From the NCBI GenBank assembly GCA_030770425.1, contig JASJFT010000019.1, positions 1 to 64,000 of the forward strand: a DNA stretch of 64,000 bases, in the 5' to 3' direction. Positions within the stretch are counted from its first letter, which is position 1. Each line of letters starts with the position of its first letter. This document shows, piece after piece, positions 27,436-61,032 of the stretch. A program made the translations under genes and the position numbers. The stretch is from Darksidea phi (lineage: Eukaryota > Ascomycota > Dothideomycetes > Pleosporales > Lentitheciaceae). The notes beneath the pieces are model-generated. The model searched no databases. It saw only the letters and a program-made list of their open reading frames with translations, and was not told the origin of the DNA.

Positions 27436-30400
27436 ATGGATGAGCAGCAGTTTGTCGGCCTCCTCGAGGCGCTCTTGCAGCGTAAGTCAACGCCCTCGAC
27501 TGCTCTCTAGTCGCGCCCGCCTTTTGGCATTTGCTTACTGCCACAGCCGACACCGAGGGTGTCAAGTCAGCAACAGCCACGCTGAACAATACATATTACA
27601 CCTCGCCCGCCTCACTCAACGCTCTTCTTCAAGTCGTTTGCAAGCACCCCAAGCCAGAGCTCCGCCAGCTAGGCGCCGTCGAGGCTCGGAAACTCGTCGG
27701 AAAGCACTGGGCCAAATTGCCCGCCGACCAGAAGTCGTCCCTGCGCAGCCAGCTGTGCGAGTATACCCTAGCTGAGGAGGCGACGCTGCCTAGGCACTCC
27801 GCTGCCCGCGTTATTGCCGCTATCGCGAGCCAAGATTTTGAGGATGGAGAATGGGGCGAACTACCCGGCTTCCTGCACCAAGCAGCGACCAGCCCGCAAG
27901 TGAGGCACAGGGAGGTGGGCACGTTCCTCATCGGGACTACCCTGGAGTCTGTTGGCGATGCGTTCCCCGGCAAGAAAGCCGATCTGTATAAACTCTTCAG
28001 CTCGACAATTCAAGACTCGGAGAGTGCTGAAGTCAGAGTGAACACGATGCTTGCGCTCAGGTATGTATATCGATTCAGGCATCTAGACGGAGACGCCAAA
28101 GTGAATGGATAGCCACTGACATCTCTCAGCCGTCTTGCCATGCTTCTCGAGCCGGATGAGGAGCCGAAAGAGCTAGCCATGTTCCAGGAAGCGATCCCAG
28201 CCATGGTGTCTGTTCTAAAATCCACCGTTGACGAAGGCGACGAGAACAACGCTCTCCAAGCTTTTGAGTGCTTCCAGACGCTCCTCGGATGCGAGTCCGC
28301 TCTTCTGCAGAAGCATTTTGGCGACCTAGTCAAGTTCATGATAGAGCTTGCCTCCTCCACTTCTATTGAGGACGACTACCGGTCGCAGGCTCTTGCGTTC
28401 CTGATGCAGTGCGTGCGGTATCGGAAGTTGAAGATTCAGGGTTTGAGGATTGGCGAGGAGCTTACCCTTAAGGCTCTGCATATTGTCACTGAGCTGGGCG
28501 ACCTGTCTAGTGAGGACGAGGACCTCACCCCTGCTCGTTCGGCTCTTGGCCTCCTCGATATCCTCGCATCCAGCCTTCCTCCTAGCCAGGTCGTAATACC
28601 CCTCTTAAAGGCACTCGGCGGATACTTCTCGTCTCAGAATCCCGACTACCGCCAGGCTGGTGTTCTCGCCCTGGGCATGTGTGTAGAAGGTGCCCCCGAT
28701 TTTATTGCGACTCAGCTGCACGAGATACTACCCGCTGTCCTGTCTCTTCTCGAGGACTCTGACCTCAAAGTTCGCGGCGCTGCACTTAATGGCGTGGCTC
28801 GACTGGCCGACGACTTGGCTGAGGATGTCGGCAAGGAGCACGCTACCCTCATCCCTGCGATGCTAAAGAACTTTGATCTTGCCGCCAACAACCTGAGCGA
28901 CGAGCGTAGCCTCCAGATCGTGCGTGGCAGTTGTCATGCAATTGACTCACTGATCGAGGGTCTTAATCCCGAGGATGCCGCCAAGTATGTCTCAGAGCTA
29001 GTCCCTCGCTTCAGCAAGTTTTTCCATCACGAAGACTTGAAGTGCAAGACCGCTGCCATTGGCGCAGTAGGTTCTATCGCGGCGGCTTCCGAGAAGGCAT
29101 TCCTTCCGTTCTTCCGAGATACTATGCAAAGCCTTTCCGAGTACGTGCGGATGAAAGACAGCTCTGATGACCTGGACCTTCGCGGTGTCGTTTGTGACTC
29201 TATGGGCAAGATTGCCTCCGCCGTCGGTGCGGAGCCGTTCGAGCCCTATGTCCTTCCTCTCATGGAAGCCTCAGAAGAAGCTCTGCACCTAGATCACCCC
29301 CGGTTGCGCGAGACGAGCTACATCCTCTGGAGCACCATGGCCAAGGTATACGAGGAGCAATTTTCCAAGTACCTTCCTGGCGCAGTGAAAGGCCTACAAG
29401 AGTGTCTCGAGCAAGACGAGACAGGTTTGGATGTCGAGCTTGGCGAACATGCCAAAGATCTTGTCGGTGCCGAGGTCATCATTGACGGCCGCAAGGTCAA
29501 GGTCGCGGCTGCGACGGATGACGAGGACGGCGACAGCGACCTCAACGAAGCTGCTATGGATGACGACGAGTGGGACGACATTGGCGGCGTCAGTGCTGTC
29601 GCTATGGAGAAAGAGATTGCTGCGGAAGTATATGGCGATATCATTACACACACCCGTCGCCATTACGTCCCCTACCTCGAGACTACGGTTAAGAAACTAC
29701 TCGAGCTCGTCGAGCACAGCTACGAGGGAGTTCGCAAGGCCGCCATCGGAACGCTTTGGCGCACTTATGCCTGCCTTTGGGGTATGGCTAAGGGTGATGG
29801 CATGGCGAAGTGGAAACCTGGGCTTCCCCCTCCAGTCGACCCTCCTGCTGAAATCAAGAAGCTCGGTAATATGGTTATGATGGCCACGATGAGCGTGTGG
29901 CAAGATGAGATGGATCGGTAAGTTGCAGCGCGTCTTTTCATCACACGTTTTCCAAAGATGAACCAATCTCGTTAATCCCAGCTCACTCTTACGCACAAAG
30001 TGCGGATGAAGCGAACGCGAATCTGTTTCTGAGTTATAGCCTCACTTTTCAGTCGAAAGAATCCCCGTTTTGGTTATTTTTTCTAACGGATCCGCAGTGG
30101 CACTGTTACCGATATCAACCGTGATATCGCAGCTACCCTCAAGTTGTGCGGGCCGGCTATTCTCATGCTTGAGAGCGGCAAGACTGTTGTCCCTGAGGTA
30201 CGTTATTCCTGTTGCCTCCAAGACGCTGAGGTTCTGCTTTCCCCAAAACTAGTGATGGCCTATGACTTTCATCATTTTCGCACTTTTCCTTATATCGAAT
30301 GTCTACTAACACATGTTCCCCCATAGATGACACAACAGCTATTGGCCATTATCACCAAGCGTCACGTGTGCCAGCAGGATCTTGGTGACGAGGAAGATGA

Positions 30401-31174
30401 TGGCGAGGTTCTCGATGAATCGTCCGAGTATGACTGGCTTCTGATCGAGACTGCACTGGAGGTCATCACATGCCTTTCAGTCGCCCTAGGACCAAGTTTC
30501 GGCGAGCTCTGGAAGGCCTTTGAGAAGCCTGTTGTCAAATATGCTAGCAGCCAGGAACCATTGGAGCGTAGTGCGGCTGTAGGCACGATTGCCGAGTGCA
30601 TCGGTAACATGGGCGCAAACTGCACGCCGTACGCGACCAATCTCCAGAAACTCCTCGTGCACCGTCTGTCAGACGAAGATCCAGAGACGAAGTCCAACGC
30701 GGTGTATGGTATTGGCTTGCTATGCGAGATGACGACCAACGATAGCGAGATTCTCAATTCGCTTCCGACGATTTTCAACAAGCTGGAGCCGCTGCTAGGT
30801 GCCCAAGACCAGGCACGTTTGCTCGACAACACCGCCGGATGTGTAAGCCGGTTCATCTCAAAGCATGGCAACAAGATTCCCATCGCAGAAGTGCTACCCC
30901 GTGTGGTTGAGCTTCTGCCCCTCAGGGAGGACTACGAGGAAAACAAGCCCGTCTTCGGAATGATTGTCAAGCTCTGTAAGTCTCTCCTATAGGTGCCGTT
31001 GATTGTAGATTGTATGCTAACTGGATGCCAGACCAAACCAACGAGCCCACAATCCAGCAACTCACCCCCCAGCTGATGCCAGTCTTTGAGAAGGTCCTCG
31101 GGCCGCCCGAGGAGCAACTGGAAGATGATACGCGATCGCAGCTAGTGGAGCTGGTAAAGTATCTGCAGAAATAA
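27436..31174 (+). CDS. Importin beta-family karyopherin, Kap123/importin-4 type
   Basis: Six exons: 27436-27481, 27547-28060, 28130-29917, 30098-30197, 30327-30975 and 31032-31174. Introns are 65, 69, 180, 129 and 56 bp; all junctions keep frame and give 1079 aa, close to the usual Kap123 length. The protein is a solenoid of HEAT repeats from end to end, beginning with an importin-beta N-terminal-like segment (DEQQFVGLLEALLQ ... LNALLQVVCKHPKPELRQLG). An acidic loop lies near residue 650 (DDEDGDSDLNEAA, DDDEW). Kap123 carries ribosomal proteins and histones H3/H4 into the nucleus under Ran-GTP control. The start codon context is optimal. The gene lies head-to-tail with the NPC1 gene, 615 bp apart. 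Confidence 0.93.
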
Positions 31175-31789: not shown

Positions 31790-34700
31790 ATGGTGCCGCG
31801 GTGCCCAAGAGGCGGATGGGGGACTGTAACAGCGGGCCTGTTCTCCATCTTGGTCGGATCAACCCTCGCTGGGCCTGATCTTACAACAAGGCACGAGAAG
31901 GGCCGGTGCGCCATCAGAGGGCATTGCGGGAAGCAGGGCTTCTTTGGGTCCGATCTACCCTGTCCTGATAATGGGCTGGCAAAGACGCCGGAAGAGGATG
32001 TGAAGAAGAAGCTTGTGGATATATGCGGCGATAGCTGGTCACACAAGGATGTCTGTTGTGAGGAGGAGCAGCTCGATGCGCTCAAGACGAACCTCGACCG
32101 CGCGACCCCCATTATCAACGCCTGTCCCGCCTGTAAGGCGAATTTCTTCAACATGTTCTGCACATTCACATGCTCGCCCGACCAATCGTTATTCATAAAT
32201 GTTACAAAGACGGAAGCGAAGGGAGATAAATACCTCGTAACCGAGCTGGACCACCTGGTGTCAAACGAGTATGGGTCCCAGTTCTACGACAGCTGCAAGG
32301 ATGTCAAGTTCGGCGCAACAAATGGCAAAGCGATGGACTTCATTGGCGGCGGTGCAAAGAATTATACACAGTTTCTAAAGTTTCTTGGCGATAAAAAGTT
32401 TCTGGGGAGCCCGTTCCAGATGAACTTCCCTCGCCCGGACAAGGACTCGTTCCTAGACATGGTACCTATGAACAAGAAAGCGCACCCATGCAACTCCACA
32501 GACGAGAAGTACCGATGTGCATGTTTGGATTGCGCAAGCTCTTGCGCCGAGTTGCCCGAGGTTAACGAGGTCAAGCAGTGCTATGTGGGCCTGTTGCCAT
32601 GTCAATCATTCGCGGTCATTATCATCTATTCCGTCTTCCTCGGTCTGCTTTGCGGCCACGTCGCGTATCAGACTCATTCAAAGCACAAAAATGAGCGATT
32701 ACGCCTCCTCCAGGATCCCGAGCCCAGCGATGACGAGGACGAAGGTGACATTGTTCATAACGTTGGGATGCTCGACAGGCCAACGAGATACTACTTTATC
32801 AATACGTGGTGTGATCGCATGTTCAGCAGACTCGGCTACCTTTGTGCGAGATTCCCCGCAATCACCATCTTTACCAGCGTCCTGGCTGTTGGTCTCCTAA
32901 GCTTGGGCTGGCTGCGGTTCGAAGTCGAGCTCGATCCCGTCCGGCTCTGGGTCTCGCCGGATTCTGCTGCTGCCCAAGAGAAAGTATTTTTCGACGAGAA
33001 CTTCGGCCCATTTTTCCGTGCTGAGCAGGCCTTCCTGGTCAATGACACTGGAGGACCAGTGCTAAGTTACGATATTCTCCGCTGGTGGTTCGATGTAGAA
33101 GGACGTATTCAGCGGTCCAAATCTTGGCAGGACGGCACCACACTCGACCAAGTCTGCTTCAAGCCCGTGGATGATGCCTGCGTAGTCCAATCCGTATCCG
33201 GATATTTCGGAGGAGATGTCAACGGTGTCTCGCCAAAATACTGGAAAGAGGACCTGCTAGCTTGTGTCGACAATCCATCATCTTGCCTGCCAGCCTTCCA
33301 GCAACCACTGGATCCCCATCTGCTATTTGGTGGCGTCAACGAGAGCGTGCTTGATGCCCAGGCACTCGTCGCCACTTGGGTCGTCAACAATCATCCTGAA
33401 GGTACCCCAGAGCTTGAACGCGTGAAGCATTGGGAAATCAGCTTGAAAAAACTTCTGCTCGCTGTACAGGGCGAGGCCAAAGACCGAGGCTTAAGGCTGA
33501 GTTTCAATACCGAAGTCAGTCTCGAGCAAGAGCTGAACAAGAGCACAAATACCGATGCTAAGATTGTCGTGGTGAGCTACATTATCATGTTCTTGTACGC
33601 TTCGCTCGCCCTTGGATCCACCACGCTTACCGTCCGATCTCTCCTTCGCAACCCTGCGAACGCGCTGGTTCAGTCCAAGTTCATGCTTGGTATCGTCGGG
33701 ATTCTGATCGTCCTCATGTCGGTTTCGGCTTCCGTCGGTCTCTTCTCAGCGGCTGGCGTCAAAGTCACCCTGATCATCGCCGAGGTCATTCCTTTCCTAG
33801 TGCTGGCAATTGGTGTCGACAACATCTTCCTCATCGTGCACGAGTTCGAGCGTGTCAATATCAGTCATCCAGAGTGCACCATTCCAGAGCGCGTCTCAAG
33901 AGCCCTAGGTCGTATGGGTCCATCAATCCTGCTTTCCGCCACAACCGAAACGACAGCTTTCGCGTTGGGATGCGCTGTTGGTATGCCCGCGGTCCGCAAT
34001 TTTGCTGCTTATGCCGCCGGTGCCGTCCTCATCAATGCGATCCTGCAAGTCACGATGTTCGTTGCTGTACTTGCTCTGAACCAGCAGCGTGTCGAAGCCA
34101 ATCGTGCGGATTGTTTCCCGTTTCTGCGCGTGCAACGAGCTGACTCAAGCTATCTTAACGGTGGCATGGGCCATGGTGCCGGCGAAGAAGGCGGCCTCCA
34201 ACGGTTCATTCGTAAATCGTACGCTCCAGCACTTCTAGGCAAGAAGACCAAGGTCGTTATAGTTGCCGTGTTCTTTGGCATTTTCACTGCTGCTCTTGCC
34301 CTCTTCCCTAAAGTGCAGCTGGGCCTCGACCAGCGCATCGCAATTCCAAGCGACTCCTATATGATTCCATACTTCAACGATTTATACGACTACTTCAATG
34401 CCGGCCCGCCCGTCTACTTTGTCACTAAGGAACTAAACGTTACCCGACGCGAAGCCGAAAAGGAACTATGTGGTCGCTTTTCCACCTGCAACCAACACAG
34501 TCTAGCCAACATCATAGAGGCAGAGCGCAAACGCCCCGGAGTTTCTCATCTCGCTGCTTCAGCTGCCAACTGGCTAGACGACTTTTTCTTGTGGCTCAAC
34601 CCTGAGAACGAGAAATGCTGCGTCGACGAAGATGGAAATCCGTGCTTTGCTGACCGAAACCCGCCCTGGAACATCACCCTCAGTGGAATGCCTGAGGGTC

Positions 34701-35703
34701 AAGAGTTTATCGATTACCTCGATCGATGGATTGAAGCTCCCTCGACAGAGGACTGCCCTATTGGTGGAAAGGCAGCGTATGCGAACGCACTTGTAATCGA
34801 TGACGAACGTCTCACTATCCCGGCATCGCACTTCCGCACTTCCCATACGCCGCTGAGAAGCCAGGAGGACTTCATCGCTTCCTACAAGGCTGCACGACGC
34901 ATTGCCAACGAGATCAGCAAAGACGTTGACACTGAAGTCTTTCCGTACTCGAAGCACTATATCTTCTTCGATCAGTATCTTTCCATTGTGCATCTCGCCG
35001 TCGCATTGATCGGCTCTGCACTTGCTGCCGCTCTCCTTGTCACCGCTGTCCTACTTGGCTCGCTCGCAACTGCGCTTGTGGTCACACTGACTGTTGGTAT
35101 GACGGTCTCAGCTATTATCGGCTCAATGGCGCTTATGGGCGTGTCGCTTAACGCCGTGTCGCTAGTGAATTTGATTATTTGCGTCGGCATCAGTGTGGAG
35201 TTTACTGCACATATCGCTAGAGCTTTTACGTTCCCAAGCCGAGCTACGATGGAGCGCGCACCACGGCACGGATTCCGTGGCCGCGACGCCCGAGCATGGA
35301 CTGCTATGGTCAATGTGGCTAGCTCAGTTATCACCGGCATTACCATAACCAAGATCCTAGGCGTTGGTGTTTTAGCGTGGACAAGAAGTAAAGTACGTCT
35401 CATCCATCATACATGAACATTCCCTGCCTTCGTGCGGAACAGGTCCGATGGCTATTTGGATAACGAACATCTCGCTAACGCGTAATGCAGATCTTCGAAA
35501 TATACTACTTCCGCGTCTGGGTCGCCCTTGTCCTATGGGCAACTACACACTCCCTCATTCTACTTCCCGTATTGCTCAGTTTGTTCGGTGGCCGAGGGTA
35601 CATTGATTCCGAAAGCGAAGGTGGACTTGAACAAGATCTACGCAATAGGCAGTACCCTGCGCTACTTGGGGAAGATGACGACGAGTACGATAGTGACTAC
35701 TAA
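31790..35703 (+). CDS. Niemann-Pick type C1 sterol transporter (Ncr1 homolog)
   Basis: Two exons, 31790-35392 and 35491-35703, with a 98-bp intron (GTACGT ... AATGCAG). The product is 1271 aa, normal for NPC1. The ATG at 31790 starts a signal sequence (GGWGTVTAGLFSILVGSTLA). The Cys-rich N-terminal sterol-binding domain follows (RCAIRGHCG, CCEEEQLDAL, CPACKANFFNMFCTFTCSPDQ). The sterol-sensing domain begins near residue 590 (VVVSYIIMFLYASLALG ... FLVLAIGVDNIFLIVHEFER), then a second lumenal domain and five more membrane helices. Vacuolar/lysosomal membrane protein that exports sterol from the lumen. The C-terminal tail is acidic (GEDDDEYDSDY). Confidence 0.96.
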
Positions 35704-36511
35704 GCCCGACATTTGTCGTGAGGCGCAAAAAAAGCGTGTGAGGGGTTGGATGGATTGGTGTGTAAGTGTAACTGGCAGGTGCAGTTCAAACAGTCATTAA
35801 GTGCGATAGCACGTGCGCCCACGACGAGTGGCGGGAGGTGTATTATTAGTAGTTGAAATTCCAATAGCCTCAATATGATTACATTTTCCATTGTCATTTT
35901 TGCTTTTTTTCCGTGTAGTATTAAAGTCGTGTTGACGGGCTGAGCAGTGAAGTTACCGGAATAAGCTCCCTTCCAAGGCTGTAATTGTAGTCAGAGATAG
36001 GCAAGTCTTAGGGTAACTCTCTAGGATGCCTTATAGAACCACATTAACTGTCCGCTTTTTGCACGACCATGTCGTTAGCAAAAGCCGGCTGTATCCAAAT
36101 GACACCTGCGATGATCCATCGTTTTAAGTTCCCTACGTGCCGATACTATGTCGTGAGTTCAGAATAAGGTAGTGTACAAAGCCGCGATGCACGTCCTGAT
36201 ACGGACGAGTGGGGTAGGTCTGGGGTTATGTTGGGAGCAATGGTTGTTTGAGACTTATAATGGCCTAGGTGTAGTGTGTTTGGGGGGGAAGGGGAGGGCG
36301 GGGAGAGAGGAGGTGTAAGAAGCAAGGGATTGTGGATCATTAATTCAACGATATGTTTACGATGGTGTCACACCACACACTGGTAGCGCATTGATAGGAT
36401 TAAACTTGGACTGCAGTGAGAGCGGTTTGGTTGGTTGTTTTGTGGTTGTGTTGGAAGCACTCGGGTGTTGTTCTTGTTGTTGGGGGGATTGTTCCCTGAT
36501 ATTTTGCATGT

Positions 36512-36538
36512 GAGAGAGAGAGAGAGAAAGAGAGAGAA
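36512..36538 (+). repeat. GA microsatellite
   Basis: Run of GA dinucleotides with one AA interruption, in non-coding DNA upstream of the HET gene. Confidence 0.85.
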
Positions 36539-37031
36539 GGGGGGGATCTAACTGTTGTAAGCGTCCCTTTTAAATTTGATAGGGCGGTGGCTACGTTGAT
36601 AGCGTCTTAGGACTCGGAGGGAGGTGTATGCACGTGCCGGATCTGGTAGGAAAGGACTTCGCCCTCAAGGTATTATGTATTGTTGTTCATCGTATCCCTT
36701 GTTGGGCGCAATTTGAGTCGATTGAACTTAATTAGGGTATGATCTGTTCTCATTGGTATCGGGTCTGGTCTTGCTGCTCTATTCTACTTGGTTACTCTTG
36801 TTCTCCTCTGGGTGCTTATAAGCGGTCCACCCCCAAATCGCTATTCGGTCCCCCCAACTTAGCCATAGCCTCTGATTGGCGCCATTGCGACAAGCCACCT
36901 AGCAAGCCACACCCCTTTAAAGTTCGGCGGCCACGTGCTCATATACGCTGCGGAACGCGACATAACATTGTAGTACCACCCGGGCGTTATCGTTACTGCT
37001 ATTGCCTGTGCTCTTAGTTAGGGCATGAAGG

Positions 37032-37063
37032 TTTTTTTTATTTTTATTTTTATTTTTATTTTT
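37032..37063 (+). repeat. (TTTTA)n microsatellite next to a start codon
   Basis: A T-run followed by five ATTTT units, ending about 20 bases before the ATG of the HET gene at 37084. Length changes here would alter the 5' leader. Confidence 0.85.
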
Positions 37064-37083
37064 CACAATTCGATTCTGTCGAA

Positions 37084-39363
37084 ATGTATGAAACTAGCAT
37101 CATCGAGGATGACTGTGACTGGGAAGACGACTTCCACTTTCGCCAGTCTGAACCCGCATCATGGACGGAACTTGACGACTGGGACGACGAAACAACCGAC
37201 CATCTATATCCATTGCCAATAATGATCAACGAGCGGAATGGCGGCGGAAAGCTTGTGGGGCCCAGATTACTATCTTTACGGCATCTAGGTCCGCGCCTCT
37301 CGATTAAACGAAGTCTGGAGCCTTTCATTCCGTTCGTGGACCGCCGCAAGATCAACGGGGCCTTCTTGCTCCAAGCCGTCGACGGAGAATGGATTGATTT
37401 GGACAACACAATCCGTGGCTGGCTGAGCATATGCGGCAGTCAACACCAACTACATTGCTCAAACACAGACTTTCTTCAATTAAGCGGAGAAAATTCATAT
37501 CCCAAGTGGCTCCTGGACGCGAAGAATTGGTGTCTCGTTCCTGCGACTAACGACAAGCGCTACTTTGCTCTGAGCTATGTCTGGGGAACTGCGAAGAGCA
37601 CTTCTACAACCTTGGAAAACCTTGACGCTCTGCAGAAGGAAGGATCACTTCTACGACATGATGTTGTCATGCCAAAACTCATCCTTGATGTGCTTCACCT
37701 GGTCAAGGAACTTGGCGAGGACTATCTCTGGGTATCCATACATCCCGTCCTGACGTAGACTTCTTCGGTATGCTAACTACTGTAGGTGGACCGTTTCTGT
37801 ATCGTTCAAAACGATGAGCCCCAAAAGACGCAGCAGCTTCAAGCCATGGCGGACATTTATGCTCGTTCGCATGCTACAATCATTGCTGCAGAAAAGTCAG
37901 CCACCAACCAAGGGCTTTTTGGTCTTCGAGACATTACAAGACCAAGATTTTTGGGGGAGCATATGCGATCCTTGGATAGACAGTCCATTCGCTCGGACAA
38001 ATTCGAAGAGTTGCGGAAACACCTGCTGGCGAAAGAGGCAACCTCTCTGCTTGACAGTGACTGGGGCACTCGAGGCTGGACCTTTCAGGAGTACCTATTC
38101 TCGACTCGGAGGATTGTATTCCAGAATGAGAGCGTTAGCTGGGACTGCCACTGTGCCTCCTGGCTTGAATGTCAGAGCCTGCCCCAAGACAGCATTCTCT
38201 GCGGGCGATCATCTGCTATCATTCGCAGCGGGGAGTCCTGGCCTGACGTATATCAGTTCGCGCGTTTGGCATCGCTCTACAACCAGCGGCTGCTGACATA
38301 TCCGCAAGACGTACACGATGCCTTCTCTGGCGCTCTTTCAGTCATTGGCAAGGTCTTTCAAGGAGGTTTCGTCTGTGGGATGCCCCAGATCTTTTTCGAT
38401 GCTTTTCTCCTCTGGCAGCCCTACACTCCAGTACATCGACGAATAGCTACAGGCCCCGCCGCAGACAGGACGTCTATTCATCTGCCTAGTTGGTCTTGGA
38501 TTGGCTGGCATGGCGATTTCGATTCCAAAAGTCTTCGAAGCGCTTACGGTTACATCAAGAAACAAGCTGATGAGTTCTTTGAAGAGAATGAAGAGGACTG
38601 GGAACCTTCGTCGTGGAGCACCATATCTACAGTGAAATGGTCGTACATGTTTGATTTAAAAGCTAGACCTGTTGACATAGCCGGACCTGACCAGATTTAC
38701 AACGACATCCGTGCGAAGCACAGTAATGAATTCACAAAACTTCCGAATGGCTGGACCGCGCACGACAACCACGGAGAAAAGAGATACTACACACATTCGA
38801 GCGACCCTAATCAAATGTTTTGGTACCCAATTCCTATACGGCAAAGGGACAGCGAGCCTTCCCCGATAATCCTCGCGCCCTTCCTATGTGGACGAACCCG
38901 TCGTGCACGACTTCAACTCGGCCGAAGGTTCAAGAATGAGATAACTTCTCGCTGTGTATGTGTGGCGCTGGAGAACCACGACGGAAAAGAAGTGGGATTT
39001 CTGCGCTGGAATTGTAACAATGGATCACCAGTCATCCATTCACCAAGAGCTTTCCGTCGCTTTGGGAGCGAAGAGGATAAGCTGAGCAAAGTTAACCTCT
39101 CCGATAATGTCGATAATGAGTGGCCATCGCAATCGGCTGATTTAATTGAATTGTCATCAGGGTCTACAAGGTACCAGAAGACAGAATGGGTAAGCTTTGA
39201 CGAATGGAGTGACAAACCGAAATCTGGCGGATTGTACGAATTCTACAATGTCATGATGACTCGCCGAGAAGGGGAATATGTATCGAGGATTGCCGTGGGA
39301 CGGGTCGACAAAACTGCATGGGAGAGCGAGATGTTGGTTACGGAATATATTATCCTTGGGTAG
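37084..39363 (+). CDS. HET-domain protein (heterokaryon incompatibility), intact
   Basis: Two exons, 37084-37731 and 37786-39363, with a 54-bp intron (GTATCC ... TGTAG, GCTAAC branch) that falls inside the HET domain. The product is 741 aa. HET landmarks: YFALSYVWGTA near residue 160, then LWVDRFCIVQNDEPQKTQQLQAM across the splice, IYARSHATIIAAEKSATNQGL, and WGTRGWTFQEYLFSTRRIVF near residue 307. The N-terminus is acidic and the C-terminal half, after LPSWSWIGWHGDF, has no known domain. HET is a TIR-like cell-death module found in fungal allorecognition. Whether this gene acts alone is unknown. Directly downstream lies a dead TPR tail (39469-39760), so it may once have neighboured or been part of an NLR-like gene. 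Confidence 0.93.
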
Positions 39364-49099: not shown

Positions 49100-49534
49100 A
49101 CGTGTTCCACCAGCAAGCTGCGCACCCCAGCACCCTGCGCAGCCCAAAAACCACCAAAAATCAGAAAAACCGCGCCTCGATATCTCAACAACGACTTAAT
49201 AAAATAATTTAAAACTCTCTACTTAGGCTTTTATATCTATTTTATAAATACTATTAGACTCTAGAAGTATTTTATCAAGTAGTTCTAGAGATACAGTAAT
49301 TTAGCTTAAATTTGGGGGCCAAAACATGATATCTTGATAAATCTTGGTAATAGCTAGGCCTACTACTCTAAGACATTAAATTAGACGCTTCGAATAGGTA
49401 TTAAAGCCTAAATATAGAGTTTTAGGTTACTTTATTAGGTCGTTGTTAAGATATTAAGGCGCGGTTTTTCTGATTTTTGGTGGGTTTTGGGCTGCGCAGG
49501 GTGCTGGGGTGCGCAGCTTGCTGGTGGAACACGT
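49100..49534. mobile_element. MITE with ~150-bp terminal inverted repeats and TA duplication
   Basis: The element starts ACGTGTTCCACCAGCAAGCT at 49100 and its other end (49534) reads the same on the minus strand. The match extends with few differences for about 150 bases, through GCACCCCAGCACCCTGCGCA and AATCAGAAAAACCGCGCC, so most of the 435 bp is inverted repeat around an AT-rich loop. TA lies directly outside both ends (49098-49099 and 49535-49536), the target duplication of Tc1/mariner-type elements. Differences between the arms are mostly C/T or G/A transitions, as RIP would cause. There is no coding capacity, so it is non-autonomous. Confidence 0.88.
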
Positions 49535-49564
49535 TAGCACGGAATCGCTCATACCAACCTTGGA

Positions 49565-50693
49565 ATGGGTCTCCATCGCCGGATATTACATCTCGCTCTC
49601 GACACAATAAAACTGATCTTCGGCACCGGTACTTTCTCCGAATACCTGGGTAGCATTCTCCTCAGATATTGGCGATATAAATACCAACCTCTTCCTACCA
49701 TAGCCAAAGACGACGCAGAGACAGATCAAGTTATACCTCAAAGAGCGACGATTCGTATTCTCAAAGTCGAACACGCGGAAGAAAAAGGGGGAGTTAGGTG
49801 CAGTCTGACGAGTTTAGAAGGGCTACAATCGCAGGAATACCACTGCCTCTCTTACACATGGGGTGATCCATTCGGGCCCGACGTTGACTATATCATCCAG
49901 TCGAGAAGTTATCTTGCAATCCGCCTAGCACCGGTTTTATCAGTCCTCCTCGGATACTGCAGGAAACTCAAGCGCTTCTTTCAGCCAAAACGCTATGTCA
50001 TTAACATCGATGATGGCTTTCTCTCCGTCACCCCAAATCTGTGGAGCGCTATCATCCATCTTTACAAGACACGGCCTGAGTTCCAAGCTATCTGGATCGA
50101 CGCCATCTGTATAAACCAGGATGATGAGGACGAAAAGAGCGCGCAAGTCCCCATTATGCGCCATGTCTATAGGCACGCGAAATCCGTCATTGCCTGGCTT
50201 GGACCGGAAGACAAGCGCAATGAGAATCTGAAGCTTGTAACAGACGGTCGAGGCTCTTCACATGCAGGAAGACAGGAAAGGGTTCTGCTGGCAAACGTTG
50301 GGTATGACCTGGAACGAAAGCTTTGAAGAATTTCCGGCCCCTGAATACATCCGAAATCTTAGCTTTGAGCATTGGTTTGCGGTGCGAAATTTTCTATAGA
50401 GACCCTACTTTTAGCGGATGTGGATCTTTCAGGAGCTTATTGTTGTTGCTAAAGAAATCGTCATCACATGCGGGGAACAAGTTATGGACTGGAACAACGT
50501 TCGGAATATCTCCCAAGCCCTTTCAAGCTTCGGAGGCAATATCATGATTCAATACAGCAGGGCAGGTTTTTGGGCGGCAGAGTCGAATAGTCCGCATCGA
50601 GTTGCATTCTGGAGAGATCAATACCAATCGAAATCGACCGAGCGTTTGCGCAGACAGTTCGGGCCGTTTGTGCCCCAGCAACGCGAACATTAG
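49565..50693 (+). pseudogene. HET-domain gene, inactivated
   Basis: The ATG at 49565 opens 253 codons with clear HET sequence: YHCLSYTWGDPFG, FQAIWIDAICINQDDEDEKS, VPIMRHVYRHAKSVIAWLGP. An extra base near 50246 shifts the frame, after which the family sequence goes on (VEALHMQEDRKGF ... NLSFEHWFAVRNF). TAG codons then stand at 50397-50399 and 50412-50414, and MWIFQELIVVAKEIVITCGE follows in frame to 50693. Both TAGs could be TGG turned to TAG, a RIP-type change. No downstream domain is recognisable. The start codon is 31 bases from the end of the MITE. Confidence 0.82.
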
Positions 50694-51976
50694 AACATCA
50701 GAACACCACGCGCATCGTCATCGCGACCACCATCAAATCTCTGCCCCCGTATATTCTTCTACCATCATATTCTGTTCTTCCAACGCGCAACAGTCAGTAT
50801 TACGGCATATAAACATGAATTCTCCTCGTGCAATATTTGCAGGGCATCGTGTCCGCTTGACGGAATTCCTTCACCCACAGCCACAGGGGCACGCATATTG
50901 TAGCCGCTGTGGCCTCTTATCAGCAGCACTGTCACTCTCGAGCTCGACAGGACTCGCTGACCAAGCATTCAGATATGATATTTGTCCACATCACGCCGCA
51001 AGTGCATAGTAAGGCTTTCTTGAACTCTTCGACTCTGCAGCCCAGACCTAGACGCCAGGGGTTCGAACGTTCTTCTCAACTTCTGCCACCGGGTTGACTT
51101 TCTCCCGGACGATTTCCTACCACGTGTACGCCTCAGGCCCGCGGCGACGCTACCAATATATTATCCTTCTGGTAGCTTTGTGACTACTGGTAGCAATGCT
51201 CGGTGGCCTCGGCTTTTGCTTTTAGCAGGGGCTTGGGTCACTCGAAGCTGAGGTGAACATGTGGACTCAAGGTACATGCTCGTTGTGGCAAACTCCGCGC
51301 CGAGGATGACGGATGCCGCAGACAGGGGAAGTGGAAATGATGCGGAAAGGAAGATTCACCCGCATTGGGACACCAATGGCCAATACGTAGTTGCTGATTG
51401 AGGTGTGAGTACAATGGACATGCGATGTAGACCACATCACCTGGGCCAAGCCGATTAAAAGAGTATCTTAATAGGTGGCGGCGCTGTTCTGACATGAGGT
51501 GTCGATGAGGTGATTCGGTTAGTACCAATGAAAACGAGCTCCTCGTAGCAGGTGGCGCTCCGTCGGCTCTCCATTGGACAGACCTGACGCCGTCAATATC
51601 TCGAGCCAAGAGATGCAACACGCTTCCTACGCCATCGATCTCCAACTCTGTATATTGCTGGAGTCAACGCCGCCATAGAATTGCTCCGACTCAGCAAAAC
51701 TTTTGTCGTGGCGCTCAGCTCTCAAGCACTGTCTCCGCCATATCCTGGTCGAAAGCCAAGCAATCGCGTGGAAATTCCGGATCGTGCGGCCATTTTATTG
51801 ATGAGGCTTTTGATGGCTTGAAGCTGAACTCATTCCCGGCATCCATAGATAATTGTGAGTTCTTTTAACACGATGGAGTATTCTTTGCACATTGTGGTCT
51901 TCGTCTCCATCACATTCACTATAGGCATTGAGAAGTTTAATTTTTGGGTTTCACTCCAGTCCATTCGTTGTTCGAA
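50694..51976. other. Intergenic, possibly decayed HET gene tail
   Basis: Open frames at 50602-51009 (plus) and 51238-51645 (minus, from a TTG) show no domain. The first 300 bases could be a decayed continuation of the HET gene. The last 300 bases are presumed promoter of the chitin-binding protein gene. Confidence 0.4.
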
Positions 51977-54900
51977 ATGTTGTATTCCTTCGTTGTCATC
52001 CTCACGCTCCTTTGCACTGCGTTAGGCGCGGATCTCGAAGCCCGAGCGCGTCGTCTCTCCAGGAATCATCCCCCTAAGGGCCAACTCAGTCACAGTGACC
52101 CGTCCGGAACTCCCAGCAAACTGAGCTACGATGGCACGTGCGGGAATATTGGAGGCACGAACTATCATTGTTCTTCCAGTGCTTGCTGTAGCCAGTACGG
52201 TTGGTGTGGAGCTTCATCGGCGTATTGCGGTAAAGGCTGTCAACCTGGGTTTGGAGAATGTCGATCGGACGCTTCATCAGCCCGATCATCTTCCGTCTGG
52301 CCGTCATCCTCTACTCAAACCTCCTCGGTGCGATACTCTTCTACTCGACCTTCATCTTCCGGACGACCATCTTTGCTCCGATCCCTTTCCGTTTACCAAT
52401 CAAGCAGTAGTCGTCCGTCTACTAGTGGCTGTCGGTCAAGCAGTGGCTCACCTTTATCATCAAAGCCCACTTCGGCTACCTCGCACCCGTCATCGCGTCC
52501 GAGCTCGCCCTCTTCGATACGGTCAAGCGCATTCAGGTCATTCAGCGCTTCAGCATCTGTTATTAAATTGAGCTCCAGGTCTTCCAGACCTTCAGCGTCA
52601 ACTTCAAAGTGTGCTAGCACCGCTTCGCCAACCTACGCTACAAGGCTTTCGAAGTCTAAGAAGAAGTCGCCGAGCCCATCCTCTTCGACAATCCACATTC
52701 CGTCCTCGTTGACTGCGAGTCCACCTATTTGGTCAAGTGTCGTGTCGAAATCGTTCAGCTTTGGTTCTGTTTCGGCCTCAATTTCCACTATAGCGTACTC
52801 GACAAGCTCAAGCACCAGTTCCGCCCAAGGTTCATCGCCTTCCGTATCTTCATCATCACCGTCGTCACCTGGAACTATTGTCAATGCTTCTGTCGGTTCA
52901 ATCTCGCGGTCAGCATCGTCAAGCAGTAAGATCTCTCGCCCCTCTCTGTCAACTTCGGAGAGAGCGTCTGTAAAGAGTCCTGCTTCACCGGCTACAAGCT
53001 CGACGCTATCTTCGTTTTCGACCGCGTCCGTACCCTCACCAAGCTCCTCTTTTGTCCAGAGTTCTTCCAGTTATCAGTCGCTGTCCTGGAGCGCTTCAAA
53101 TCCCTCATCGTCCTCTGCGGCCTTTGCGTCGTCTCTGACAGCTTCGCTTTTTTCGTCCATTCAGAGCGGTGCTTCGGCTGTTCCAAGCTACTCTCCAACA
53201 GTCTGGTCTTCAACGAGTGGGGATCTGACTCTGAGTTCGCCTTCGAACTCTTCCACCATTGTCAATACCTCAACGATTCAAGCGTCGTCATCTTTTATGC
53301 CAACCTCTTCAGTCAGCGAGTCTACATCATCAGACTCAGTCAGCACCTTGTTTTCGTTTTTTGTTTCTTCCGTTCCAAGCGCTAGTGTATTCTCAAGTAC
53401 ATATAGCCCATCAGAAGCGTCTCCATCTCCTTCATCTTCGGCCGAGAGCAGCAATCAGTCCGCTTTTCCGTCGATAACTTCATCCCTGCCAGATTCTAGC
53501 CCTGTAGGCTCGCTACCTCCTCAATCTATTCAGCCGACCACCAGCACGACCAATTATCCAGACTTCATTTACTATTGGGTCGACGAGCCTTCATTCCAAT
53601 ACACAGCACCTAATCTTGCCTCATTTACACCAATTGAGCAAAACGATTCCATCGTCGTCCACAACTTTGAAGGCAGCACAATCGGTTCGTTCTGGGAGGC
53701 AGGCGAACTGAAGCCAATCTTCACTTCTGTCGTCGATGGCCACACGCTTGTCTACGACTTCTCCGATCTATCGCGGCTGAGCTTCTGCGACACAACCGAC
53801 GGAATATGCTATAGCTTGCAGGATGATGGAATACATATCTTTGCGCCAGAGGGTGGAGAAGCCATCTTGCAATATCCGACCGCTGTACCTCCAGCTTCCA
53901 AGACCAGACGCACTGCAATCGACAAGCGGGTACTTCCGACTATCCCCGACCCGGAGATCACTGCTGTAGCCAAGTTCATCGATGCTTGCAAGACTGAGCT
54001 ATCGAACCTCACCCCGGTGCCAGAATTTACCTACGACACACTCCCTTGTGTTAATTCGCACATCGCTTCAAACGGATACCAGGGCGTTTGTAAGTGGGTG
54101 ACTAAAAAGGAGGCAGAGTGTCGAAAGAGCACAAAGACAATTATTGATGACTACCTCGGCGGCGATAGCCTTATCAAGAAACTCAAGAGCTACTTGGGCG
54201 TCGTCGACGGGCTGTTCCTGAATGGTGCTATCGGCGGAGCATTAGATAAATTCACCCAATGGGCCCTGGACGAGGCTAAGAATTATCCCAAGCTCGCAAA
54301 ATTGATTGAGAAGATTGACGTGAAGTATATTCCTAACTTTTTCAAAACGGCCTTCTTGGTAAGGGAGCTGCTCATCGATATCATCGGGTCGGAGAACGAA
54401 GCTTGGGTGCTGTGCAAGGCGTGGCTCATCTACGACGGGGACGCAACCGGCTCCCACGACTACAAAGTGAGTTTTGGTACACAGAGTTGGAAGATTGCGT
54501 CTGTCTTCAAGCAGCCGGATCCTCCCGTGGTGTTTGCGCCATCGACTCTGGAAGTTAACTCGGTACCCGCTGATGGCTGTGGCATCGGAGGTAACCTCAT
54601 CCGGAACGGCAATTTCGAGGGCGACGGCGACATTTGGCTTTGGCCTAATGGTCGTGGCTGGTACCTTCCTCAAGCTCCGACCGATGTGACTGAGTTCTCT
54701 GCTTGGGATGGCTGGCAGATGACCTCGGTCACGACTCCCCAATCAACAATCAAAACTGAAGGATGTCTCAAAGGTGCTCGGTGTTTGTAAGTGTACGCTT
54801 CGCTGTCTACCTAGATGTATCTAACTTTGACAGACAACTCTACGCCACCTCCTCGCCGGGCAACGTTAAGGGCGGCCGCCTCTACCAATCACTAATCCGG

Positions 54901-56675: not shown

Positions 56676-59600
56676 TCATGCCCCGTAGTGGACATACGGC
56701 GCCCATTTCAACGGCTGCTCCCATTCCTTCATCCGAGCTGCACTCACTGCCTCATGTAGCGCTAAGGCTATATCTTTATCCTCTATATTCCTGTCCCCTC
56801 CAAAGAGTGTTCCATAAAACGCCTTCGTAACTTCCACACAGACTCCATCTGCAGATGGCCACAGACAGCCAACGACATGCGCGAACCCAGCAACCTGGAA
56901 CCCGCTAACAACGTGAATGACCTCATCTCCTAGTCTCCTTGCTCTATTTTCAGCAGTTGAACAAGCTGAAAGGTATGCAAGCCTTGCATGCTCTAGCTTT
57001 AACTCAGAGACATTCTGTACCGTCACTGTGTCTTGGATAAGATGTCCAGTCCTGTCCTGCTTTTGGAATACTAGTCCGCTTTCAGACGGATTCCTAGAGT
57101 TGGTGAGTCCGTGGCAAGCAAAGTGGGCGATATTACAATGCTTTAGGCTCTGCATAACCCGGGAAGCACTTGGACTATCCTGTACCTCCGACTTGAAGTG
57201 AGCAGGGAGCACTTCCAGAATTGCTTCTTTTTCACCCTCGACTCCGCCAAGGTCAGCTTGGCCTGGACTAGTTGTCATAGTCGCCAGCAATACACTGTCA
57301 CCGTAGACATCGCTCTTCTGCGGCCGCTGTCGGCTATATGCGAGGGCTTTGATCGACGGCGTGTAGGACGAAAGCACCCTCTTGAAAAGATTCTTGTCTG
57401 ATCTAGGCCTATGGTCTCCTGCGGCATGGAAGGGCATTGAGCTGGCTAGCCCAGTCCCGATCCACCAGATCCTCGGGAGGGCCCGCTTCTCCTGCTGCAC
57501 TTGGAGTCCGCATGCCACGAGAACGTCTTTCACGCATACTTGGTAGAGCCAATCTAGGTACTCTCGTAACTCCTTGTTGATAGAGGGTTGGTTTTCTCGG
57601 ACTCCACCCGACTGGCTGATTGGCCATCTCTGGGCGTCTGACGCTGACAGTTTGGGCAGCTCTATACTCTTAATTCCTGACGACGAAACGATTATCGCGT
57701 GACTAGCGATGATGGTCACATTAACCACAACAATGAGCCCTTCTGTTGCGCATGTACGCATTTCGGCCGGTGTCAGGCCGAGAAGGAACCGATCGTAACC
57801 AGGAGTATTGCGGATGTCATTAACGCATCGCTCGAATGCCGCTACACGGTCTCGACGCCATTGTTGAGCGTTTTTCATGGTACCCGGGTCGTCTTGCTTG
57901 GAGAAGGGAGCATTTATCTCGTCAAGGAGTTTCTGGAAACAACGGGCTTTTTCTGGATGCGCCTCGCTCAGAGCCGAGATGTCGCTTCGGTCGGACATGA
58001 GCTGGCTAAGGATGACTGTCCGCCCTCTCTCGAGAATCTCCAGCGCCTGCTCATGCAAACCAAGTCGGAGATAAACCGAACATGCCGAGGCGGGGAGTCC
58101 ATAGAAATACGATATAACATACTGTTGGTCACTGAGTGGAAGAGATCTGTTCGAGATGGTCGGCATCATATTCATGGCTTCGTCAGCAAGGGCTGCGGCA
58201 GGACCAAGTTTTCCACGCATGCCAAGGACTTCCACACACCGGGCCGCAGCCTGGACGCGACGGAAAGGGATGCCAGTCTCGCACTTCCAGGCACCCAAAA
58301 ATAAATCGCCACATTTTTCCAGGTCGGCCGCGTCGCCTTTTCGGTCATACCGTTGAATAAGGACGTGTCCAAGATTGTCCAAATAACCCGCCCGATCTGG
58401 ATGGTCATTTGGCGTTAAGTCAACGGCCTGCTGCGCTGCTTGAATGGCGGCTTCCAGGTCAGCTATATTGCTTGTTCGCTCGTACTCGCGGATAAGATAG
58501 ACTCCAAGGTTGCCTAAGTAGCCTGGCCGAGCTGGATGGTCATCAGGTACTAGGTTGACGGCCTGCTGTGTTACCCGGATTGCTACTTCTAGGTTGGCTA
58601 GGTTGCCTGTCTGCTCGTACCGGCTTTTAAGCTTGCTTCCAAAGTTAATTAAGTAGTCCGCACGGTCTGGATGGTTGTTTGGCGTTAACTTAAGAACCTC
58701 CTGCGCTGCTTGTATGGCTGCCTCGAGGTTGGTCATATCGCCGGTTCGCTCGTGCCGGCGAAAAAGATGGATTCCAAGGCAGTTCAGCACGAGCGCCCGA
58801 TCTGGATGGTTGATTGACGTTAAGTCGACAGCCTGCTGCGCTGCTTGAATGGCGGCTTCCAGGTCAGCTATATTGCCTGTTCGCTCGTACCGGCTTCTAA
58901 GGTTGTTTCCAAGGTTGTTCAGTATGCGCGCCCGATGTAGATGGTTGTCTGGCGTTGAGTCGATGGCCCCCTGCGCTGCTTGGATGGCCGCCTCGAGGTT
59001 GAGCAGTTCGCCTGTTCGCCTGTACCGGCGTTCAAGCTTGGTTCCAAGGTTGTTCAGCATGGGCGCCCGATCTGGATGGTTCTTTGGCGTTAAGTCGACA
59101 GCCTGCTGCGCTGCTTGAATAGCGGCATCTAGGTCGGCTATGTTGCCTGTTTGCTCGTACCGGCAAATAAGACGCATTCCAAGGTTATTCAAATAGCCCG
59201 CCCGATCTGGATCGTTGTCTGGCGTTGAGTTGATGGCCTGCTGCCCTACTTGAATAGCGGCATCTAGGTCAACCATGTCGCCTATTCGCTCATACCGGCG
59301 AAGAAGAGGGTTTCCAAGGTTGTCCAACCTACCCACTCGATCTGGATGGTTATCTGGCGTTAAATCGACGGCCTGCTGCCCTGCTTGAATAGCGGCATCT
59401 AGGTCAACTATGTCGCCTGTTCGCTCGTACCGGCGAAGAAGATGGATTCCAAGGTTGTTTAAGCGGCCCGCCCGACGTAGATGTTTATTATCTGGAGTTG
59501 AATTGACGGCCTGCTGCGCTGCTTGGATGGCAGCGTCTAGGTCGGCCATTTTGCTTGTTTGCTCGTACCGGTGAGCAAGATGAATTCCTAGGCTGTTCAA

Positions 59601-59936
59601 TTCGCCCGCTCGATTTGGATGGTTGTCTGGCATTAAGCCGATGGCCTGCTGCACCGCTTGGATGGCTGCTTCCAGGTCGGCTTTGTCACCTTTTCGATGG
59701 TACCTTGTTATCAACATGTCTTGATACATTGAAAGAAGAGCCGGAAGTGAATCACTGTCTGCAGGTGTGTCATTGATCGATTGTGCGGCCATGGCCACAG
59801 CAGCATTGATCAAAATAACCTCGCCAGTGCGGGTATGCTTTTCGTACGCTTGTTTTGCCATAAAGGCTAGAAGCCTTGCTGATTCGATGCTGTTGCCGTC
59901 CATTTGCCTGAGTCGTGATGCCTCGCTGCTCGCCAT
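56676..59936 (-). CDS. TPR-CHAT caspase-like protease
   Basis: Single exon, ATG at 59936 (a GTG lies one codon upstream), 1086 aa. Residues 1-88 are helical. Residues 89-539 are ten tandem 45-residue TPR-like repeats (core DAAIQAAQQAVDLTP-D-HPDR and LNNLG-xLxRRYERTG). Residues about 540-760 are a degenerate TPR/linker region. The C-terminal CHAT domain (about 780-1086) carries the peptidase dyad: His942 in HFACHG and Cys992 in YLSACSTA, followed by VAGFAHVVGCLWP. CHAT proteases are caspase-fold enzymes; in bacteria TPR-CHAT cleaves effectors on activation, and in fungi CHAT proteases sit beside gasdermin-like genes. Here it is divergent from a 284-aa candidate substrate. No NB-ARC or NACHT is present. 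No defect is visible; it appears intact. Confidence 0.92.
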   Translation of the reverse strand: MASSEASRLRQMDGNSIESARLLAFMAKQAYEKHTRTGEVILINAAVAMAAQSINDTPADSDSLPALLSMYQDMLITRYHRKGDKADLEAAIQAVQQAIGLMPDNHPNRAGELNSLGIHLAHRYEQTSKMADLDAAIQAAQQAVNSTPDNKHLRRAGRLNNLGIHLLRRYERTGDIVDLDAAIQAGQQAVDLTPDNHPDRVGRLDNLGNPLLRRYERIGDMVDLDAAIQVGQQAINSTPDNDPDRAGYLNNLGMRLICRYEQTGNIADLDAAIQAAQQAVDLTPKNHPDRAPMLNNLGTKLERRYRRTGELLNLEAAIQAAQGAIDSTPDNHLHRARILNNLGNNLRSRYERTGNIADLEAAIQAAQQAVDLTSINHPDRALVLNCLGIHLFRRHERTGDMTNLEAAIQAAQEVLKLTPNNHPDRADYLINFGSKLKSRYEQTGNLANLEVAIRVTQQAVNLVPDDHPARPGYLGNLGVYLIREYERTSNIADLEAAIQAAQQAVDLTPNDHPDRAGYLDNLGHVLIQRYDRKGDAADLEKCGDLFLGAWKCETGIPFRRVQAAARCVEVLGMRGKLGPAAALADEAMNMMPTISNRSLPLSDQQYVISYFYGLPASACSVYLRLGLHEQALEILERGRTVILSQLMSDRSDISALSEAHPEKARCFQKLLDEINAPFSKQDDPGTMKNAQQWRRDRVAAFERCVNDIRNTPGYDRFLLGLTPAEMRTCATEGLIVVVNVTIIASHAIIVSSSGIKSIELPKLSASDAQRWPISQSGGVRENQPSINKELREYLDWLYQVCVKDVLVACGLQVQQEKRALPRIWWIGTGLASSMPFHAAGDHRPRSDKNLFKRVLSSYTPSIKALAYSRQRPQKSDVYGDSVLLATMTTSPGQADLGGVEGEKEAILEVLPAHFKSEVQDSPSASRVMQSLKHCNIAHFACHGLTNSRNPSESGLVFQKQDRTGHLIQDTVTVQNVSELKLEHARLAYLSACSTAENRARRLGDEVIHVVSGFQVAGFAHVVGCLWPSADGVCVEVTKAFYGTLFGGDRNIEDKDIALALHEAVSAARMKEWEQPLKWAPYVHYGA
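58320..59672 (-). repeat. Ten tandem 135-bp TPR-coding repeats
   Basis: The unit is 45 codons (one copy has 46). Neighbouring copies are nearly identical at DNA level, e.g. GCCTGCTGCGCTGCTTGAAT recurs, as does CGATCTGGATGGTT. Differences cluster at a few codon positions. Such identity points to recent duplication or gene conversion, as known for repeat domains of fungal NLR-type recognition proteins. Confidence 0.92.
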
Positions 59937-60177
59937 CACGTTTTACTGTATCAGATGTGCTGTGGAATGGATGCAAAAGTATCTCAAGCGCGTGCAGACG
60001 ACGAGATAAAATTGGTTGTCTTGGCAGGGGCTGTGCGTGTCTCACATTTACTAGGTGAGGCTGAGCACCGGCTGCGTCATTCTGTGCAGGCAGCCACAGG
60101 ACGAAAGCGTATAATAGCGTCCTCGACGCCACCTTACATCCACATAGAAGCTATTTGACATTCTCCACACTATCGAA
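59937..60177. promoter_or_regulatory. Shared 241-bp divergent promoter
   Basis: The two start codons of the protease and its neighbour face away from each other with 241 bp between them and no other gene, so the pair is likely co-regulated. No specific binding site was identified. Confidence 0.6.
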
Positions 60178-61032
60178 ATGCCGCTAAGCATTATCTCGCC
60201 AGACTTTTTCCTTCCCTTAGGTTCCGCTAAACTCGGCCGGCTCGTACGGTACGTCGAATTTCCTACGCTGGATTACCACGACCCGCCCTACCTGCAGGCT
60301 CCCGAAGAAAAACCTGTCGTTCGCGGCCAGTATATAAGGGTATCACAAGACGAGAACAGTGCCGGCTTTACGACCAAGCTGACATCACTCATGTCATCTG
60401 GATTCTCAAAGCGAGCGAATGCCAAGGTCCGAATCGAGACGGACACGGTTAAAACCTACATACTGGACAATTCAGCATCTTGGTTTCTGGAGGCTACAAA
60501 GTTTGAGGAGACCAGAAGATGGATAGAGCGTGCCCTTGGTGGAGATGGAATTTACCTCATCATTGGCTTTCATACCGTAACGGATGCTCGCATTGTGCAC
60601 GAGTCGATCGAAGGACGCCAACTCGCCGGTGAGCTAACTTGCCCTGTTGGCTTGTCGCTCGCTGCCGTTGGAGCTGTTGCGCCACTCGGTGGCATCATCG
60701 ATCCTTCTATAGGTGGACACCAGAGGGTTCTGGATGGGGCAAAGACCCAATTTGTCGCGCTTGGAGAGCAAATTTGTGCCTTGCAATATTGCAAAATCTC
60801 TTATCGTTGGCTGCGCAGGAAGAACATCGATAACCTTAAGCTGTCCAAGGCACTGTATTGGACAGCCAAAGAGAGCTGGCGGGTGGCGAGTGTTGACGCG
60901 GCGAAAGACGAGCCCGATATTCTTAATGTAGAGATTGAGGAATTGGAAAAGCTTGAGGGAGACTGGGAGAAAGAAGAAGAAGGAGGCGAAATTTTGCTGC
61001 TGCGTTCCGTTGAGGAAAGCGATGAATTTTGA
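60178..61032 (+). CDS. Candidate gasdermin-like effector paired with the CHAT protease
   Basis: Single exon, 284 aa. Visible parts: a hydrophobic N-terminus (SIISPDFFLPLGSAKLGRLV), then DYHDPPY; alternating beta-strand-like segments (AKVRIETDTVKTYILDNSA, GIYLIIGFHTVTDARIV); a Gly/Ala-rich hydrophobic hairpin (VGLSLAAVGAVAPLGGII, residues 157-174); a basic helical segment (205-236); and an acidic tail (residues 244-284, 18 Asp/Glu against 3 Lys/Arg). No signal peptide. Size, N-terminal hydrophobicity, strand pattern, short tail and protease neighbour all fit the fungal gasdermin-like family (RCD-1, HET-Q1), pore-forming cell-death proteins; in HET-Q1 a protease removes a short C-terminal tail. 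This is my inference, not a search result; otherwise it is an unknown protein. Confidence 0.6.
   Translation: MPLSIISPDFFLPLGSAKLGRLVRYVEFPTLDYHDPPYLQAPEEKPVVRGQYIRVSQDENSAGFTTKLTSLMSSGFSKRANAKVRIETDTVKTYILDNSASWFLEATKFEETRRWIERALGGDGIYLIIGFHTVTDARIVHESIEGRQLAGELTCPVGLSLAAVGAVAPLGGIIDPSIGGHQRVLDGAKTQFVALGEQICALQYCKISYRWLRRKNIDNLKLSKALYWTAKESWRVASVDAAKDEPDILNVEIEELEKLEGDWEKEEEGGEILLLRSVEESDEF

Follow-up and report, generated by a model that had tools for sequence, protein, structure and literature searches.

In the first 64,000 nucleotides of contig JASJFT010000019.1 of the ascomycete Darksidea phi (the window), two genes arranged head-to-head encode a TPR-CHAT protease on the minus strand and a 284-amino-acid gasdermin-like protein on the plus strand, and the pair is very probably a two-gene fungal cell-death switch in which the CHAT protease activates the gasdermin. 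The locus combines two genes, a CHAT fold with an intact catalytic dyad, a gasdermin fold, a conserved tail and a conserved pairing; we infer that the pair senses a cue, and that cleavage, pore formation and cell death follow, in defence or non-self recognition. The initial annotation of the window had read the pair as a candidate cell-death switch, and the checks of fold and pairing described here support it. This would make the locus a compact, intronless gasdermin death pathway, with receptor and caspase-like protease united in one protein, and with two sister pairs elsewhere in the genome. Sets of this kind could offer a way to address the nature of the TPR cue, the restraint of CHAT and protease-gasdermin specificity, all listed as open by reviews. 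As pairs of this type have already been described in fungi, the list of known system types is unchanged.

The protease and the gasdermin-like protein

The protease gene occupies 56676–59936 of the minus strand (1086 amino acids, no intron seen), since the open reading frame as listed opens with GTG and its ATG is the next codon. The gasdermin-like gene, likewise an open frame in which no intron is seen, occupies 60178–61032 of the plus strand. Between the two start codons lie 241 bp (59937–60177, assigned to no strand), the separation originally given. Protein searches returned 69 homologs of the 284-amino-acid partner and 1117 of the C-terminal half of the protease (120 of these listed), so both genes exceed chance. 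A chance reading frame and bacterial contamination were ruled out; the homologs, where a name is given, are all fungal among the matches listed, the nearest named ones of both proteins being from Periconia macrospinosa.

The CHAT protease domain, found by Pfam (PF12770) and genome search, covers about residues 791–1086 (56679–57566, minus strand). In the GTG-numbered frame the Pfam match spans residues 793–1087 and, at 131.7 bits (E = 4.8e-38), exceeds the cut-off of 24, and the genome search places CHAT at 56679–57563. The initial annotation had reported an intact domain with His942 and Cys992, a numbering that is right from the ATG; across the 37 rows of an alignment, His942 never varies and Cys992 is kept in at least 90%. 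Nearer the N-terminus, the ten TPR repeats first noticed are seen as ten clear 45-residue units (residues 88–538; 58323–59675, minus strand), recognised by regular spacing and model helices, with a mean pairwise identity of 59%, one unit of 46 residues, and one divergent unit in front. The DNA encoding this probable sensor arm consists of 9.7 tandem copies of a 135-bp unit (58387–59704). A structure model of the protease, with a predicted local distance difference test score (pLDDT) of 84.9, matches Csx29/TPR-CHAT and separase and shows the repeat arm as paired helices in a solenoid; in the PDB, nothing matched its sequence at E up to 0.01.

The 19 Pfam families listed for the protease at E up to 1 include neither NACHT nor NB-ARC, as was claimed from the outset, and the same library does detect a NACHT-type module in another CHAT protein of the genome (contig C224). 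Without such a module, the protease does not qualify as an NLR with a CHAT effector; its CHAT domain, above the curated cut-off and with the His-Cys pair, and its attached repeat domain of 11 units (TPR, where ANK or WD40 may stand in other members) are features of the Q2-L class of CHAT proteases that control a gasdermin. Compared with its nearest homolog (P0072), the protease is 88% identical in the repeat arm (399/452), 96% in CHAT (285/296) and 77% in the first 84 residues (62/81); the faster-changing repeat arm would fit a sensor, in what is a thin comparison of one species pair.

The partner begins with a predicted pore-forming domain (about residues 1–212; 60178–60813, plus strand), delimited by the strands and helices of its structure model, which agree with the beta-strand pattern noted earlier. 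A Foldseek search with this model, following the fold check proposed for 60178–61032 by the initial annotation, placed gasdermin entries at all of ranks 1–24, and they also make up the 26 best rows after realignment. In structural alignments, which cover residues 1 to about 260, RCD-1-1 is the closest match, and the modelled protein appears to have the pore-forming fold of the gasdermins. Nothing in a viral structure library matched at E up to 0.001.

The acidic 41-residue tail (residues 244–284; 60907–61029, plus strand) carries a net charge of −15, and is proposed as the inhibitory element from this charge, its conserved residues and its model strands (248–255, 263–268 and 271–276, with blocks 251–280 at pLDDT 81–88). 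It is preceded by a low-confidence linker at about residues 213–246 (60814–60915, plus strand; blocks 211–250 at pLDDT 60–71), a candidate clip zone. Among full-length rows (the 52 of 63 alignment rows that start with M and have 265–315 residues), the last 42 residues are acidic in 52 of 52, with net charges of −19 to −7 (mean −13.1), and the remainder of the protein averages close to zero (mean +1.9). Of 62 rows, 60 retain D247, 60 retain W263 and 59 retain V251; at position 250, 58 have E where the window protein has N. The genome's two paralogs are also acidic-tailed (−14 and −15), the copy on contig C474 being without the W motif. A short C-terminal tail of some 40 residues is thus present as in fungal gasdermins, where HET-Q1 (278 amino acids) is reported to lose 40 C-terminal residues through a cut at F238 (PMC10989679); by analogy, a cut at about residues 213–246 would free a piece similar in size.

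The alignment (A1) leaves out seven of the 69 homologs as short or fused (P0024, P0026, P0037, P0046, P0062, P0070 and P0071). The first ~190 residues of P0037, a metagenome protein of 483 amino acids on a 2675-base contig, are annotated at source as nucleoside phosphorylase; the protein has no Pfam family at E up to 0.01, and is possibly a fused enzyme-gasdermin gene, or else two genes read as one.

Conservation of the pairing

Around 80% of fungal gasdermin genes reportedly share a cluster with protease genes; for 63% this is S8, and for 19% CHAT lies within 10 kb (PMC10197012). Following the survey suggested by the initial annotation, homologs of the two genes were seen to co-occur in other fungi and at two further places in this genome. 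In the 51.35-Mb assembly of 477 contigs, three gasdermin queries, which would miss more distant gasdermins, all returned the same four places: the window and contigs C474, C81 and C412. On C474, a gasdermin gene (30002–30838, minus strand) lies alongside CHAT at 34176–37274 on the plus strand, with a repeat-bearing frame from 32386; on C81, the gasdermin gene (49183–50106, minus strand) adjoins two plus-strand frames (50467–51975 and 52022–54478) that carry repeats and CHAT. Each of the three intact gasdermin copies found thus has a divergent CHAT gene beside it whose repeats are related to those of the window. C474 has few repeats (2 and 1 units), and Pfam assigns no TPR to the frames on C474 and C81; in the control for the repeat-unit search, reversed sequences gave no unit in ten of ten. 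CHAT itself occurs at nine places, one being a fragment on C88, and we calculate that the eight long CHAT genes, taken with flanks of 10 kb each way, amount to about 0.3% of the genome.

A serine-protease partner was considered and rejected. The genome has 26 S8 matches; contigs C474, C81 and C412 carry none of them, and the sole one on C101 is about 252 kb off. With no gasdermin/S8 pair found, CHAT would be the sole trigger among the detected copies. The fourth gasdermin-like place (L017, G000:C412:122235-122981) is a broken copy with eight in-frame stops and up to 40% identity to a metagenome homolog (P0067), on a contig with neither a CHAT nor an S8 match; it is either a gasdermin lost along with its protease or a stray copy.

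Outside this genome, pairing was inferred from identical contig base counts and locus numbers, using the longest contig per protein cluster. Ten of 37 gasdermin homologs on contigs of at least 3 kb match the exact base count of the contig of a listed CHAT homolog, compared with 0.06 matches on average when base counts were shifted by 1–60. One match (P0033/P0175, 3150 bp) is too small for both genes end to end, leaving nine credible pairs, and three of the nine have locus numbers: Scytalidium g11075/g11074, Pseudogymnoascus 04961/04960 and Cordyceps 9434/9436. The sequence of P0072 continues upstream into one like the intergenic stretch of the window, so the layout of the pair is the same there. 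A search for the catalytic-His motif failed in two of 13 pairs (C81 and P0175), in which the printed sequences show HLACH forms. The position of a gasdermin gene next to a protease gene, characteristic of fungal gasdermins, is thus seen in the window, on C474 and C81, and in other fungi.

Proposed mechanism and alternative explanations

At rest, the acidic C-terminal tail would fold back on the pore-forming domain and keep the gasdermin inactive. The protease would be receptor and enzyme in a single chain, its TPR solenoid binding a cue, and this binding freeing or ordering the CHAT active site (His942/Cys992). CHAT would then cut the linker before the tail, at about residues 213–246, and the freed N-terminal part would enter the plasma membrane as a ring pore, killing the cell. 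Candidates for the cue are same-species non-self, a pathogen or damage.

The closest described likeness is a two-gene cluster of Podospora anserina, in which a TPR-bearing CHAT protease is reported to activate a gasdermin (Clave et al. 2022, as cited in PMC12881547); compared by description only, it shares neighbouring genes, CHAT with TPR, and no separate caspase. About 17% of gasdermin-linked proteases are stated to have CHAT, with TPR, ANK and WD40 repeats common (PMC10989679), and direct protease-TPR fusions are described as frequent (PMC12881547). HET-Q1/HET-Q2, also of P. anserina, has a gasdermin of similar size whose tail of about 40 residues is removed by a protease, but there the protease, HET-Q2, is of the serine S8 type and the pair are unlike alleles of a single locus, whereas here the protease is CHAT and the genes lie side by side. 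Bacterial gasdermins share the short inhibitory tail, protease neighbour and similar fold, but are prokaryotic and used against phage. The TPR-CHAT of Craspase (Csx29, type III-E CRISPR) differs in its RNA-guided sensor, gRAMP, and in its substrate, Csx30, which is not a gasdermin (PMC11106740).

The proteins of the three pairs in this genome are only ~24–33% identical to each other. A more tentative proposal is that the three head-to-head gasdermin/TPR-CHAT pairs form insulated parallel circuits, each protease specific to its own partner, with fast-changing TPR arrays setting the cue.

Several observations weigh against an activating pair. The partner model is middling (pLDDT 74.8, with residues 146–186 below 50), just one Foldseek row has an E below 0.001, and no TM-score exceeds 0.5. 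Pfam has no family for the 284-amino-acid protein and gives only scattered weak single matches for 63 homologs; in the PDB, phmmer and profile searches at E up to 10 (with P0001 and two paralogs) gave no gasdermin chain, only chance-level rows. At five other long CHAT loci, 72 query proteins found nothing gasdermin-like in the flanks that were fetched, so CHAT is not always accompanied by a gasdermin. In other fungi, 27 of the 37 homologs have no contig match, which says little because 997 of the 1117 CHAT homologs were not listed. The Mantel value for the co-variation of gasdermin and CHAT identities over 13 pairs (r 0.96, 0/20000) is inflated by shared species history and includes the doubtful pair P0033/P0175.

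Two of these five CHAT loci stand out. A repeat-bearing CHAT frame with seven units (L018, G000:C342:16699-19806) extends to the contig end, leaving one flank unseen, and a gasdermin neighbour could be hidden beyond. The C224 protein (L022, G000:C224:90264-95225) is an NLR-like frame of 1654 amino acids that joins a NACHT-type NTPase module, nine 45-residue repeats and CHAT; its fetched flanks hold no gasdermin-like match.

The best-surviving alternative, although unlikely, keeps the same machine and makes it a heterokaryon-incompatibility (het) locus, cued by a conspecific allele and not by a pathogen or damage. HET-Q1/HET-Q2 and RCD-1 are described as het loci (PMC12881547), and in Aspergillus fumigatus hetB a CHAT protein is given as one of two unlike alleles (PMC11138114), so that an allorecognition version exists for CHAT. 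Two HET-domain genes also lie 6–22 kb from the pair, but these may be ordinary, given at least 152 HET matches genome-wide (150 of 346 candidates scored), and most fungal gasdermins are thought to act outside allorecognition (PMC12881547). It is improbable that a real gasdermin is activated here as in RCD-1, by meeting another allele after cell fusion, with the main substrate of the protease elsewhere: RCD-1-1 is the closest structural match, and RCD-1-1/RCD-1-2 of Neurospora crassa is described as two alleles activated without proteolysis (PMC12881547), but activation by alleles alone needs neither the long acidic tail that is kept nor a CHAT pairing conserved in distant fungi and found three times in one genome. 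Very improbable, too, is that the protease restrains the gasdermin by cutting or binding it, so that its loss kills in the manner of an addiction pair; a poison and guard, too, might show such tight divergent linkage and parallel divergence, but the built-in tail already resembles a guard and the Podospora TPR-CHAT is reported as an activator (PMC12881547). That the 284-amino-acid protein is no gasdermin and its pairing accidental is hardly credible, since the missing Pfam and PDB sequence matches and the middling model are set against the gasdermin structure rows and the repeated pairing.

Other genes of the window

The gene content of the window is fungal in character, with HET and Niemann-Pick C1 domains as well as fungal RNA-binding and chitin-binding ones. 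The two HET-domain genes are at 37786–39363 and 49565–50326. Adjoining the pair, on the strand opposite to the protease gene, 51944–54790 encodes a long serine-rich protein with a chitin-recognition domain.
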